DNA from: Dietzia alimentaria 72
Lineage (GTDB): Bacteria; Actinomycetota; Actinomycetes; Mycobacteriales; Mycobacteriaceae
Assembly: GCF_000226215.1 (NCBI RefSeq)
Contig: NZ_AGFF01000016.1
Coordinates: 1-54,759, forward strand
DNA: 54,759 nt
Direction: 5' to 3'
Notes under the pieces: model-generated
Told to the model about the DNA's origin: nothing
Seen by the model: only the letters and a program-made list of their open reading frames with translations
Databases searched by the model: none
Position numbers and translations under genes: made by a program
Shown: positions 50,408 to 54,759 of the stretch, piece by piece
Position numbering within the stretch: position 1 is the stretch's first letter
How the letters are laid out: each line of letters opens with the position of its first letter

Positions 50408-51757
50408 TCATGCTGTCTGCAGTGCGTGAGTGAGGGCGTGGTCGAGGTCTGTTAGCAGTGCGAAGGGCAGGATCGGTGCTTCCATTGGCGCAGGAGGCGG
50501 TGGCCCGGGTTTAGGTGCTGGTGGTGCGGCGGAGCGGGGCGTGTTCTCGGGCGGGATCCATCTCACGCCTTGGGGTGCGGCCGGATCGGGCATCGTGGTC
50601 CAGCCTGTGGAGTGGATCATGGCGTGGCAGTCGGCGCTGACGAGGGCGAGTTCGTTGATGTTGGTGTTGCCTCCTGCGGCCCAGGGTTTCCCTGCGTGGT
50701 GGGCTTGGCAGTGGCGGGCGTCTTGGTCGCAGTCGGGGTGCGTGCAGCCTCCGTAGGCGGCGAACAGGGCCAGGCGCTGGTAGCGGGATGCGGTTCGGCG
50801 GCTGCGGAAGAGGCGCAGCTGCATTTCCTCGTCGCACAGAGCGAGGAACCAGTGGTTGCCGCGCGCCATTGCCAGGGCTTGCGGGACGGGGACACGCAGG
50901 CCGGTGTCGGTGTGGCCGCAGCCGGCCAGGGTCGCTAACTGGTCGAGATCCATACGGATGACGATCGCCGCTGCGCCGGTCTTGGCGGGGTCGGCTGACA
51001 GGGCCAGAGTGAGGGCGTGGACCATCGCGTCGTGCATGCGTTGGCCGTCGGTCCGGTCGTCGGAGGTGTCGGGGTCGGGCCACAGTCTGCCCGGCTGGCC
51101 CCAGCGGGCGTGAACCTCGCGCATCAGTGCCGCGAGCTGGGGATCCATTGTCATGGACGCGCGGGCCATCAGATCCAGCCCCTGGCCGCCGCAGGTGACT
51201 GAACGACGGCGTGCGCGCTCGTCGGCGCCGCGCTCGGTCCGCCCCGGATCTAACTGATCCAGTAGTCGATGCGCATGCTCCTGCAGGCGGCGGGTCGTGC
51301 ACTGGTCGGCGGCGAGAGCGATTAGCTGCTCCTCCAGGTGGGCGCGAACCTCGTCGTCGTAGTCGTCCGGCAGCGCGGCCAGCGCGGTGCTGATGATGCG
51401 CAGGTGCCCGGCGGATAGGGTGCCGGCGGCGGTGGCGCGCATGCGGGCGGTGTCGGCGATGGACGAGTCGTCGAGTCGGCCGCGCGCATCACTGGGGGAC
51501 AGTCCCAGCCCACCGGTGAGCATCTGACGGTCGTTGATGAACCCCATTTGGCGGGCTGTTCCGGCGGTGCGTGCGGCAGCCACCACGCGGGCCTGGGTGG
51601 CGCGGATGCGGCGCTGGGCCTGCTCGAGCGCGACCAGTTCGGCGTGCAGCTCTGCGGCCGACGCCTCCTCCCACTCGTGCTGTAGGTGCACATCCAAGGC
51701 GGACAGCACGGTGGTCAGCTCCCCGCTGGCTGTGGTCCCGCTTCCGGTGTCGCTCAT
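50408..51757 (-). CDS. DUF222/HNH endonuclease (13E12 repeat family)
   Basis: 449 residues. A DUF222 helical domain (about 20-310, with RRIRATQARVVAAARTAG and TLSAGHLRIISTALAALP) is followed by an HNH nuclease core: CTHPDCDQDARHCQAHHAGKP and NINELALVSADCHAMIH. The end is Pro-rich. These genes are multicopy in Mycobacteriales and often carried in mobile or repeat regions; their role is unsettled. TCTAAT ends seven bases before ATG 51757, favouring that start over one 57 bases upstream. It marks the left edge of the accessory block. Confidence 0.9.
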   Translation of the reverse strand: MSDTGSGTTASGELTTVLSALDVHLQHEWEEASAAELHAELVALEQAQRRIRATQARVVAAARTAGTARQMGFINDRQMLTGGLGLSPSDARGRLDDSSIADTARMRATAAGTLSAGHLRIISTALAALPDDYDDEVRAHLEEQLIALAADQCTTRRLQEHAHRLLDQLDPGRTERGADERARRRSVTCGGQGLDLMARASMTMDPQLAALMREVHARWGQPGRLWPDPDTSDDRTDGQRMHDAMVHALTLALSADPAKTGAAAIVIRMDLDQLATLAGCGHTDTGLRVPVPQALAMARGNHWFLALCDEEMQLRLFRSRRTASRYQRLALFAAYGGCTHPDCDQDARHCQAHHAGKPWAAGGNTNINELALVSADCHAMIHSTGWTTMPDPAAPQGVRWIPPENTPRSAAPPAPKPGPPPPAPMEAPILPFALLTDLDHALTHALQTA

Positions 51758-51764
51758 GCGTTCG

Positions 51765-51770
51765 ATTAGA
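51765..51770 (-). promoter_or_regulatory. -10 hexamer for leaderless DUF222/HNH gene
   Basis: Minus-strand TCTAAT, seven bases before ATG 51757. The 326-base interval 51758-52083 otherwise shows no clear gene; TTGGAC at 52037-52042 may belong to the DUF3558 promoter. Confidence 0.4.
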
Positions 51771-52083
51771 TCATCTGGGTACGACACGAACCGGTCGATG
51801 CAGATCAGCGACACTTCTGGAGCGATGGCGACCGCTTGGCGAAGTTACGTTGCGGCGCCGCGCCCGTCGCGACCAATACGGTTCGAGCTGCGCTGCGCAC
51901 TCTGGCTGGGTCGTGCGGGACGATTTGGTGGCCCACCACTTTGACGCCGCGAGATGTCATCCTTACCCGTGTGGATGCCCCGACCGTATGCCTTGCCGAG
52001 CTCTGAACTGCATGTTCCGTCAGGGCTTGGAAAAGTTTGGACAAAGTGGAACCGCGCGCTGCTGCCGGCACGTCGTACATGAT

Positions 52084-52683
52084 GTGGGGAAAAGTAGAGC
52101 TGTAGGGGCCGCGCTGATCGCGGCTGGGATGGTGCTGACCGGGTGCGCGTCGGGCGGCGGCGTAGAGGGTTCGACGACGACGAGTTCCGCTACCGCCGAG
52201 CCCGTCAATCCGTGGGATCTTCCACTCGAGCAGAGGCCGGCCTTATTCGATCCGTGTACCGAGCTCCCGGTGGAGGCTGTGGAACAGGGTCTCGGTGGGC
52301 CGGTTGAGAAGGTGAATTTGTACGAGCGGAATCGACCCGGCGAATTAATGGCTTGCGGATGGGCTACAGATCAAGCTGAGATCAGCGTCTTGGCTACTTG
52401 GAAACCGCGATATGAATACATTAAAGACCGGTCATTAAAGATATTAGATTTGGAAAATAACGTAGATGGCAGAACGGGTATGCGGCTGGTCGATAACACA
52501 GCTGTGACCGAACGCTCGTGTATACAACTATTTTTCACTGAGCGAGGAACAATCTGGTTGCGACTGGACTTGCTCGACTTCTTTCGAGAGTTCAGGGGAG
52601 AGCGGCCGACTGAGCCGTGCGGGGCCCTAGAACAGGCGATTCCACCGATCATGGCTCACTACCCGCAAGGAGAATTTAAGTGA
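52084..52683 (+). CDS. DUF3558-type lipoprotein
   Basis: 199 residues from GTG 52084. The N-terminus KSRAVGAALIAAGMVLTGC is a lipoprotein signal with lipobox LTGC. A Ser/Thr linker leads to the DUF3558 core: PALFDPCTELPVEAVEQ, ACGW near the middle, and ERSCIQLFF; the paired Cys may form disulfides outside the membrane. Its start is uncertain, since no ribosome site is seen and an in-frame ATG exists 72 bases upstream. GC is low for this genome in 52381-52500 (about 50 of 120 bases by eye) and TTA codons occur, a sign of transfer. Coupled by GTGA to the next gene. Confidence 0.82.
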   Translation: MGKSRAVGAALIAAGMVLTGCASGGGVEGSTTTSSATAEPVNPWDLPLEQRPALFDPCTELPVEAVEQGLGGPVEKVNLYERNRPGELMACGWATDQAEISVLATWKPRYEYIKDRSLKILDLENNVDGRTGMRLVDNTAVTERSCIQLFFTERGTIWLRLDLLDFFREFRGERPTEPCGALEQAIPPIMAHYPQGEFK

Positions 52684-54575
52684 CAGTTGTTCTTGACGCA
52701 GGCGCCGCCGAAAGTTGCTTTGCGGCGAGTATGGAATTTTCCCTAAAACTCCAACAATTAGCTCACAATTACGCAGTATCGGAGCAGGATTATGGCGGGG
52801 GTTCGTTTCGAACTGCTCGCCAACTGGGAGCGGTCTACTCGCTTTTTGTCGGGCATGATCTTCAAACTCTGCTTAATGGGTTTGCAGCTCAAGGCGAAGC
52901 TATGTCGTTCCTCTTCAAGGCGGCCGGCGGCCTAATCGAAGCCCAGGATGAAGCCTTGGCTGCCGCCCTGTCGAAGGCGACCGAGGAGCCGGCGGGGCTG
53001 CAGAGCCTGGGGCTGATCAATGCCGGCGAATCCGACGTCTTCAGCCTTGGCGATCAATGCGTTATGGGCGCCTACGGCCGGGTGGGACCGGAAGATGTTT
53101 CGAACGAGTCGCTCGAATGGATCGCGAGTAGCGCAGAGGGCCTGCAGCCCGGGCAGTATCTGGAAATCCGTCAAAGGGCCGCTGATGTGGCGCGCGACCT
53201 CGCGGAAGCTGCAGTGACACTCAAGAATGAGCTCGGCGGCGTGCTCGGCTCCGCCTGGCAGGGCGAGTTCGTTGTGAGCGCCTTGGACTCAAAGAGCAAG
53301 CTCGTCGAATCGGCGCTCTCACTCTCGACGGAACTGAACCAGGTCGCGGACAAAGCCCAGCGGGCATATGAAGGCCAGGAAACCACCCGCATCCGGGTCA
53401 GTGAGCAAGCGATGGCAGTTGCGGAGCAAAGCGGGTCCGGAACGTCGTTCTCCGGCAATGTCAACGCCTCCGCCATAAACGAGATCAGGAGACGCCAGGA
53501 GGCCGAAGAACAGGCCCGGGCGATCGTCAATCACGAGTACAGCCCAGCCGTGATGGATGCCAACCTCGACGATATGGACTTCACCACCGCTTACCGCGTC
53601 GTTTCGGGGACAGCGCTTGGCGGGCCGAACGGCATCGACATGGGCCGCATCTGGAACAACGACGGTGTCATCCGCCCGGCCACGGCGGGGACGCCGAGTG
53701 CTGCCGCACTTGCAGCGGCGGCCGGCGGTGGTGCGGGTGCTGACGTGGGTGTGGCTGGTGGCGGCGGGACTTCCGGAGGTGCCGGGGCTGGCCCGACGAC
53801 GACGAGCTCGCCCGTTGCCCCGACGAATCCGACTACCGAGCAAGCGTTGCTGGCTTCTCGAGGGGGCGCTGTCGATGGCGCTGGGGCGGTTGCTGCTCCT
53901 GCGGGACAGGGGGCATCGGGCGGCGGCGTGAATGCGTCGACGACCGCTGCCGGTGCGCCATTCGTCCCTTCCACGACGGCTGGTGGCAGACAGTCGGGTG
54001 CCGGAGGAGGCGGAATCCCGGGTATTCGCGGGGCCGGCAGGTCCAACCGTGAGCGTGATCGTGGCTTCGGCAGTGCCGCGGGCCTGGTGGGTGGCGGCGG
54101 GGCCGCGGCGGCGGGTGCTGCGGCATCCCGCCTCGGCGGCGCCGGCACGTTGGCGGGAATCGGTGGGGCAGCCGGCTTGGGCGGGGGGCCAGGAGGCGGA
54201 CCGAGTGGCGGTGGCGCGGGCGCAGGAGCGTTCGGAGCCGGATCCGCGGGAGCTGGGCCTGCGGGATCGGGTGTAGGAGGGACGTCGCCGTCGTCGTCGT
54301 CGGGCGGGGCCCAGGCAGGTCGAGCAGGCGCGATGCCGATGGGCGGCATGGCGGGCGCATCGGGTGCGAATCAGAATTCCGACCGCAAGGGCCACACGCC
54401 CGCCGGCTACCTGACCAATGCGACCAACACCACGGCCATCATCGGCGATCCGCTCAAGGTCTCGCCGGCGGTGCTGGGTCGCAAGCTGATGGAGGGTCCG
54501 GCAGCAGAGGATCAGCCCGAGCCGTTCCGGAGCCGGGTGATCGGACGCGACTACACCGGCCGCGCAGCAAATTAG
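52680..54575 (+). CDS. PPE/WXG100-like Gly-rich protein, candidate type VII secretion substrate
   Basis: 631 residues. Region 1 (1-100) is a helical hairpin with YAVSE. Region 2 (145-285) is a second hairpin with a turn W193-Q-G195 and, 35 residues later, Y230-E-G-Q-E234, the W-x-G plus YxxxD/E layout of type VII (ESX) substrates. Residues 335-570 are Gly/Ala-rich. The last 59 residues (GYLTNATNTTAIIGDP, KVSPAVLG) look conserved. No signal peptide or membrane helix. AAGGAG precedes GTG 52680, which overlaps the lipoprotein stop. ESX export and surface location are inferred. Confidence 0.8.
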   Translation: MTVVLDAGAAESCFAASMEFSLKLQQLAHNYAVSEQDYGGGSFRTARQLGAVYSLFVGHDLQTLLNGFAAQGEAMSFLFKAAGGLIEAQDEALAAALSKATEEPAGLQSLGLINAGESDVFSLGDQCVMGAYGRVGPEDVSNESLEWIASSAEGLQPGQYLEIRQRAADVARDLAEAAVTLKNELGGVLGSAWQGEFVVSALDSKSKLVESALSLSTELNQVADKAQRAYEGQETTRIRVSEQAMAVAEQSGSGTSFSGNVNASAINEIRRRQEAEEQARAIVNHEYSPAVMDANLDDMDFTTAYRVVSGTALGGPNGIDMGRIWNNDGVIRPATAGTPSAAALAAAAGGGAGADVGVAGGGGTSGGAGAGPTTTSSPVAPTNPTTEQALLASRGGAVDGAGAVAAPAGQGASGGGVNASTTAAGAPFVPSTTAGGRQSGAGGGGIPGIRGAGRSNRERDRGFGSAAGLVGGGGAAAAGAAASRLGGAGTLAGIGGAAGLGGGPGGGPSGGGAGAGAFGAGSAGAGPAGSGVGGTSPSSSSGGAQAGRAGAMPMGGMAGASGANQNSDRKGHTPAGYLTNATNTTAIIGDPLKVSPAVLGRKLMEGPAAEDQPEPFRSRVIGRDYTGRAAN

Positions 54576-54623
54576 CAGAAGACGGTTCCAGTCAAACGAT
54601 CATTGTGCCTCGGCAGAATTGTC

Positions 54624-54629
54624 GATACT
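54624..54629 (+). promoter_or_regulatory. -10 hexamer for leaderless lipoprotein gene
   Basis: GATACT, six bases before ATG 54636. Confidence 0.4.
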
Positions 54630-54635
54630 GATCGG

Positions 54636-54759
54636 ATGAACGCGAACTCGGTACGGAGGAGGGCGGTCGGACTTCTCGGAGCCATGGCCGTGGTGATGGC
54701 AGGGTGCGGCGGAACGCAAAACGACGAATCGCCGGACCAGTCAGAGACGACCACCTCGA
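54636..54759 (+). CDS. lipoprotein, partial (runs off the window)
   Basis: Only the first 41 codons are present. They encode a short basic start (MNANSVRRR), a hydrophobic stretch and lipobox VMAGC, then an acidic Ser/Thr linker (ESPDQSETTTS). The arrangement is like the DUF3558 lipoprotein upstream, so it may be a second member of that family, but the domain is beyond the window. Start supported by GATACT six bases upstream. Confidence 0.65.
   Translation, partial: MNANSVRRRAVGLLGAMAVVMAGCGGTQNDESPDQSETTTS

Follow-up and report, generated by a model that had tools for sequence, protein, structure and literature searches.

The LpX–PPEL locus

The window analysed here, 54,759 nucleotides long, is the entire contig C24 of the 3.35 Mb genome of Dietzia alimentaria 72. 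Near its end lie two coupled genes encoding LpX, a DUF3558 lipoprotein, and PPEL, a single-chain PE::PPE protein. The LpX stop codon and the GTG start of PPEL overlap as GTGA, and LpX matches DUF3558 at 42.3 bits, above the cut-off of 34.1; the coupling claimed in an original prediction, made from the sequence alone, is thereby confirmed. The features of the module, modelled where indicated with AlphaFold2 (AF2; predicted TM-score, pTM) or detected with hidden Markov models (HMM), are as follows.

52084..52683, + strand: LpX, DUF3558 lipoprotein, 199 aa (GTG start; Pfam PF12079; alignment of 14 sequences; AF2 pTM 0.74)
52300..52802, + strand: hypervariable low-GC cassette, LpX codons 73-198 and PPEL codons 1-41
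52680..54575, + strand: PPEL, PE::PPE protein of 631 aa in one chain (GTG start)
52680..53015, + strand: PE-like hairpin, residues 1-112 (HMM, alignment, AF2 helices 7-30 and 44-100)
52935..52949, + strand: site aligned with the YxxxD/E export motif, residues 86-90, IEAQD in the window (alignment)
53067..53558, + strand: PPE-like hairpin and next helix, residues 130-293
53256..53264, + strand: WxG turn, W193-Q-G195 (invariant)
53367..53381, + strand: Y230-xxx-E234, judged a chance occurrence (not conserved)
53697..54374, + strand: Gly/Ala-rich low-complexity region, residues ~340-565 (sequence, alignment)
54375..54491, + strand: conserved C-terminal tail HTPAGYLTNATNTTAIIGDPxKVxPAVLGR, residues 566-604

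The AF2 model of PPEL (pTM 0.72, mean predicted local distance difference test score 75.6) contains the two expected helical hairpins in one chain (H7-30/H44-100 and H158-192/H196-252). Fold comparison assigned it to the EspB fold, ten of the top matches being titled EspB, and a PDB sequence search with PPEL returned no EspB chain to E 10. The description of the protein as PPE-like holds for the second hairpin by its EspB fold, but not by profile: against the Pfam PPE family (PF00823) PPEL scores 19.5 bits (residues 154-271) and 22.2 bits, both below the cut-off of 26. The W193-x-G195 turn stands, both residues being kept in 20/20 alleles. The long Gly/Ala region and distinctive C-terminus also recur in the same form in 12 of 16 aligned sequences (window counted); locus L042 is divergent, and three sequences end at contig ends before this part could be judged. 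The tail weakly matches the tails of PPE proteins in two other genomes (L081 and L082, E ~1e-5 and 1e-4), where an EspG gene lies near the PPE genes. The weakly shared pattern is H-x-P-x-x-YL ... IG-x-P-x-V-x-P-x-x-LG, and by eye similar tails (WL...VAPPVLG) occur in type VII secretion system (T7SS)-type proteins of L084. From these resemblances, the PPEL tail is perhaps a general sorting signal.

LpX consists of a signal peptide, a lipobox (LTG/C, at C21), a conserved stretch (43-72) and a hypervariable ectodomain (73-198), predicted to fold as a mixed alpha/beta domain. Its best fold matches, all at background Z, are TiME (7.5), Tsi3 (7.3), PsbP, Mog1 and SciW/EagT6, which suggests a PsbP/Mog1-like sandwich. 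In the literature searched, we found no published function for DUF3558 and nothing linking it with PPE proteins; searches on ESX-4 or type VII secretion in Dietzia and on hypervariable lipoproteins of type VII secretion returned nothing on the LpX–PPEL locus.

A hypervariable cassette spans the gene junction

From 24 matches, 20 alleles of 17 genomes were compared. Excluded were the divergent G012 (33%), two matches confined to the first residues (83 in G004, 74 in the second G009 copy) and G022, which begins only at residue 42; earlier identity statistics used 15 alleles, or 10 for CcdA, encoded by an upstream neighbour. Pairwise protein identity drops at LpX 73 and recovers at PPEL 43. In codon-aligned DNA, both halves of the cassette are less identical than both immediate flanks in all 190 pairs of the 20 alleles. 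Nucleotide scans of five pairs, hand-picked among close pairs as were the eight pairs used for Fisher tests below, dip to 0.38-0.65 from about -420 to +120 of the PPEL start, with flanks mostly at 0.70-0.95; the spacer upstream of LpX was unalignable in two of the five. GC content is 0.52-0.56 in the cassette and 0.56 in PPEL 42-72, compared with 0.68 just 5' of the cassette and 0.68-0.71 from PPEL 73 onward (CcdA third-position GC, 0.84-0.96 over 10 loci).

The divergence extends to synonymous positions. Among the 18 pairs closest in PPEL 41-112, identity at fourfold-degenerate sites was 0.34 in LpX 73-198 and 0.33 in PPEL 1-40, against 0.65 in LpX 22-72, 0.50 in PPEL 41-112 and 0.59 in PPEL 130-280. 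Alleles G015a and G011a share 6/31 such sites in the cassette and 114/150 in the flanks (Fisher's exact test, P 4.5e-9); seven of the eight chosen pairs gave P < 0.001, the eighth being G017/G013 (P 0.13). Since selection at the protein level alone would not hasten synonymous change, these comparisons show that the cassette alleles predate their flanks.

Cassette and flanks also have different genealogies. The nearest neighbour of an allele differs between cassette and flank for 12/20 alleles, and in tree tests the flank tree was rejected by the cassette data and the cassette tree by the flank data. G015a, G008 and G011a form a clade at 99% in the flank tree, whereas the cassette tree places G015a and G008 with G002, G003, G016 and G009a at 100%, apart from G011a.

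Several simpler causes of the dip were rejected. Random alignment does not account for it: LpX cassette codons have a mean identity of 0.51, compared with 0.26 when one member is shuffled, and the alleles are therefore homologous. A mix-up of paralogues would not leave the result identical among the 11 alleles with CcdA upstream, where the same ordering was found in 55/55 pairs. Relaxed constraint or decay is contradicted by the reading frames, open in 20/20 alleles across the LpX portion and as far as PPEL codon 290, and by the invariance of LpX C91, W93, W106, C146 and C179; nor would it saturate synonymous sites in the cassette alone. A diversity-generating retroelement fits poorly with variation over ~500 nt and two genes that includes synonymous sites, although no reverse-transcriptase search was made.

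The two halves of the cassette co-vary

Distances in LpX 73-198 correlate with those in PPEL 1-40 (r 0.46, 0/2000 permutations; 0.44 given PPEL 130-280), and less with PPEL 41-112 (r 0.30, 6/2000) or PPEL 130-280 (r 0.24, 12/2000). For the conserved part of LpX against PPEL 1-40, r was 0.01 (906/2000 permutations). The PPEL 1-41 data reject the flank tree (approximately unbiased test, AU, 5e-8) and only weakly reject the tree of the variable LpX part (AU 0.04; Shimodaira–Hasegawa test, 0.16), whereas rejection in the other direction, of the PPEL 1-41 tree by the LpX data, is clear. Co-inheritance of the halves is therefore strong but incomplete.

Variation within each half is bounded. The alignment of LpX 73-198 has zero insert columns and 10 gap cells. 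In PPEL 1-41, L5, A10, C13, C17, F20 and an aliphatic residue at 24 are conserved at a spacing of 3-5 residues, while elsewhere up to 12 residue types occur, with no insert column; the spacing and constant length indicate a fixed amphipathic helix whose outer face is varied.

PPEL arose by fusion of a PE-like and a PPE gene

An HMM of Dietzia PPEL 1-112 matches stand-alone open reading frames (ORFs) beside PPE genes in another genus of the same family, where a four-gene unit PE-like–DUF3558–PPE–EspG occurs at 12/30 loci. In PPEL the PE-like partner is therefore present in cis as the first hairpin, while the second hairpin is of PPE-like and not, as originally proposed, of EsxB-like type. PPEL is a single chain in which a PE-like gene and a PPE gene have been fused and, by structure prediction, is EspB-like. 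Four pairs compared in the other genus showed no identity dip; the closest, L089/L090, are 0.73 identical in the PE-like protein, 0.73 in DUF3558, 0.75 in PPE and 0.82 in EspG. Judging by these alignments, the hypervariability may be peculiar to Dietzia.

PPEL is probably exported by a single ESX-4-like system

The genome of D. alimentaria 72 encodes an ESX core, as the proposed secretion route would need: EccB, EccC, EccD and MycP scored above cut-off and a WXG100 pair is present, with EccE at 57 bits against a cut-off of 108. Given the predicted hairpins and this core, both sequence-level conditions that would have refuted the original reading are absent. The single EccB match lies on contig C20, so PPEL (C24) is not encoded beside the ESX locus. 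We call the system ESX-4-like because of its ribosomal-protein-like neighbours, recognised by eye, and from knowledge of such genera rather than from a tree; an excerpt of PMC11217815 states that ESX-4 alone among T7SSs has been found in Actinomycetota other than mycobacteria, Nocardia and Gordonia being examples.

No EspG was found in this genome, and only 1/23 Dietzia genomes was positive (G010, 91 bits), several Dietzia assemblies being incomplete; the positive controls G026, G062 and G194 matched with 1, 20 and 2 copies. Of the original claim that PPEL lacks PE/EsxB and EspG partners, the part on EspG was borne out, but a PE-like partner is present as the first hairpin. Export of PPEL probably runs through the genome's one ESX-4-like system without EspG.

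At the site aligned with the export motif, I86 and D90 are both found in 20/20 alleles, so that PE helix 2 does not end in a YxxxD/E motif. The 23 PE-like relatives have Y (7), F (9) or another residue (7) at position 86, and D (20) or E (3) at position 90; with Y in 7/23 only, the signal tyrosine is not general in these proteins. The I-x-x-x-D of PPEL may be a shifted or a lost signal. The EsxT-like protein encoded at the ESX-4-like locus (L009:18791-19108, L120-L131) shows a parallel: it carries F-x-x-x-D in 11 of 13 Dietzia loci, L-x-x-x-D in the window's genome and Y in the divergent G012 only. The F or L at 12/13 loci makes a genus-wide shift of the YxxxD/E signal possible.

Genomic setting and distribution

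The gene order leading to the module is hemL-like aminotransferase, phosphoglycerate-mutase-like, TlpA-like thioredoxin, CcdA-like, a divergent DUF222 gene, LpX and PPEL (names from Pfam, except the phosphoglycerate-mutase-like gene, named by eye). Two further features flank the module.

50408..51814, - strand: DUF222 gene, divergent from the module (Pfam DUF222, 87.3 bits)
54636..54759, + strand: further lipoprotein gene, start only (incomplete, the contig ending at 54759)

The second lipoprotein gene predicted downstream thus has a real start at 54636, but the gene is truncated by the contig end. We take the DUF222 gene to be of the 13E12 type. It accompanies LpX in 17 of the 23 loci that show LpX, among them second copies away from the ccdA site; none was found in L036, L042, L043, L068, L069 or L070. 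CcdA lies upstream in 12 of the same 23 distinct loci, 8 of which also show ResB on the downstream side; in relatives, ResB and CcsB stand downstream of PPEL. The M. tuberculosis counterparts of these cytochrome c maturation genes are contiguous, and for this reason the module looks like an insertion within a cytochrome c maturation operon. The PPEL gene adjoining TlpA and CcdA genes bears cysteines, Cys13 in 19/20 alleles and Cys17 in 18/20 (Ser17 in the window); with a spacing of four residues, they share a face of the PE helix.

A PPEL 1-337 query matched 20/61 genomes, all of them Dietzia (20/23 Dietzia, 0/38 others); the three Dietzia genomes without a match are 64, 82 and 78% complete. 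Named genome records hold 14 orthologous loci, all in Dietzia. A profile of 16 sequences matched 9/200 genomes of the order, the own genome included. Elsewhere its matches were confined to the PPE half, G062 being the exception with a separate ORF that aligns to residues 2-99. Second module copies lie outside the cytochrome c site at L040 and L046. Four Dietzia genomes carry two module matches with different cassettes: L028/L035 (G010), L039/L040 (G015), L045/L046 (G011) and L030/L036 (G009). Such genomes are a possible store of donor cassettes. G010, the sole EspG-positive Dietzia, is among them.

Other observations concern the 3' side. A WXG100-like ORF lies just 3' of PPEL and convergent to it in three Dietzia (L041:7323-8348, 23.7 bits, and L047:7255-8283, 26 bits, both below the cut-off of 27.3; L044:12156-13157, by eye), and a similar ORF of the own genome is on another contig (G000:C36:24598-24828, 29.4 bits). 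Between PPEL and ResB in G005:C1, one ORF (L047:4425-5144) reads by eye as green fluorescent protein and the ORF beside it (L047:5194-5988), also by eye, as an aminoglycoside (neomycin/kanamycin) phosphotransferase; the genome, a public Dietzia one, thus seems to come from a tagged laboratory strain carrying an insertion that adjoins the module.

A phage or plasmid origin of the module was rejected, as PPEL 1-337 had no tblastn match in plasmids and LpX none in phages, the converse searches not being made. A defence library gave no match for PPEL or LpX and one, at chance level, for the DUF222 protein.

A matched specificity cassette as the preferred interpretation

Our leading interpretation, held at slightly less than even odds, is that the junction carries a specificity cassette whose matched halves, one on an exported EspB-like protein and one on its lipoprotein partner, are exchanged together. 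LpX would sit on the outside of the membrane and there, as an extracytoplasmic partner, hold or read PPEL after export, binding the exposed face and the turn of its first PE helix (residues 21-41). In the EspB bundle, WxG and YxxxD lie at one end and a chaperone-bound helical tip at the other (excerpt of PMC9811218). From topology, the PE turn, where PPEL varies, would likewise face away from the WxG end. Contact would be allele-specific, and the cassette would preserve matched pairs: the LpX ectodomain and PPEL helix, on one contiguous segment, could be exchanged between Dietzia lineages as a unit via the conserved flanks, with diversity maintained by outside selection from a phage, predator, rival or kin. 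A more specific version, which we regard as speculative, is a recognition locus in which a receptor lipoprotein domain and the PE helix co-diversified and passed between species as one cassette under balancing selection; it would make a type VII secretion protein the basis of a recognition system, for self/non-self or driven by phages, whose variation straddles a gene junction. Co-inheritance of the halves is incomplete, their co-variation could come from linkage without binding, and the I-x-x-x-D of PPEL counts somewhat against export.

The strongest alternative, which we consider rather unlikely, is a conventional EspB-like substrate whose junction is diverse through neutral reshuffling of old alleles or low-GC foreign import, linkage producing the co-variation without specific contact. 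Low GC, the adjacency of the halves and the imperfect agreement of their trees speak for it. Yet the same segment is less conserved in every one of the 190 pairs at fixed length, and PPEL L5, A10, C13, C17, F20 and position 24 are kept while others vary; constraint plus diversification therefore fits better than neutral import.

A nutrient or heme module, combining a PPE-type envelope protein with a lipoprotein in a cytochrome c/heme operon, appears improbable. It would explain the CcdA and ResB neighbours, and an excerpt of PMC10117145 reports that M. tuberculosis ESX-4 is needed for heme uptake and that PPE64 can bind heme and form channels. However, second copies lie elsewhere (L040, L046), and the same excerpt reports no effect of ESX-4 on PPE36 or PPE62 localisation. 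Slightly more doubtful still is a toxin–immunity pair, with PPEL an antibacterial T7SS effector and LpX an envelope immunity lipoprotein: Pfam and NCBIfam scans to E 1 found no toxin domain, and PPEL varies at its N-terminal part and has a C-terminus conserved across the genus. An EsxB-type second hairpin that uses Y230-xxx-E234 for export, as originally read from motif spacing in the window sequence, can be practically discarded, as Y230 occurs in 1/20 alleles (the window alone) and E234 in 3/20, the hairpin is PPE-like, and the aligned signal site is on the PE-like half.

PPEL is an EspB-like single-chain PE-PPE of a non-mycobacterial genome that has one ESX-4-like system and lacks EspG; it shows how fusion can capture a PE partner. 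Under the matched-cassette interpretation, the cassette would be the genetic sign of a DUF3558 lipoprotein and a PE-PPE tip working as a pair. If that pair is under balancing selection, its surface would be read by something outside the cell, and the role of ESX-4 in non-mycobacteria would become directly testable.

Comparison with known systems

EspB has a long low-complexity C-terminal part, as does PPEL. Its further likeness to this ESX-1 protein of Mycobacterium lies in the single-chain PE-PPE four-helix bundle with a WxG turn, and EspB makes no use of EspG (excerpt of PMC9811218). PPEL differs in having Ile at the Tyr of YxxxD, an ESX-4-like rather than ESX-1 system, a coupled DUF3558 lipoprotein, a hypervariable PE helix and a conserved C-terminal tail. 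In contrast to the heterodimers PE25-PPE41, PE5-PPE4 and PE8-PPE15 with EspG, PPEL is one chain in a genome without EspG.

Like the cassette, CdiA-CT/CdiI, polymorphic toxin tips and other exchangeable pairs have adjacent matched variable parts on conserved flanks. Unlike these pairs, the Dietzia cassette has no detected toxin domain and joins the N-terminal helix of a secreted-type protein to the C-terminal part of an upstream lipoprotein. The PE-like–DUF3558–PPE–EspG unit of the other genus has parts homologous to LpX–PPEL; compared with it, the Dietzia locus has the PE-like and PPE parts fused, lacks EspG, places DUF3558 ahead of the PE part and is hypervariable at the junction.
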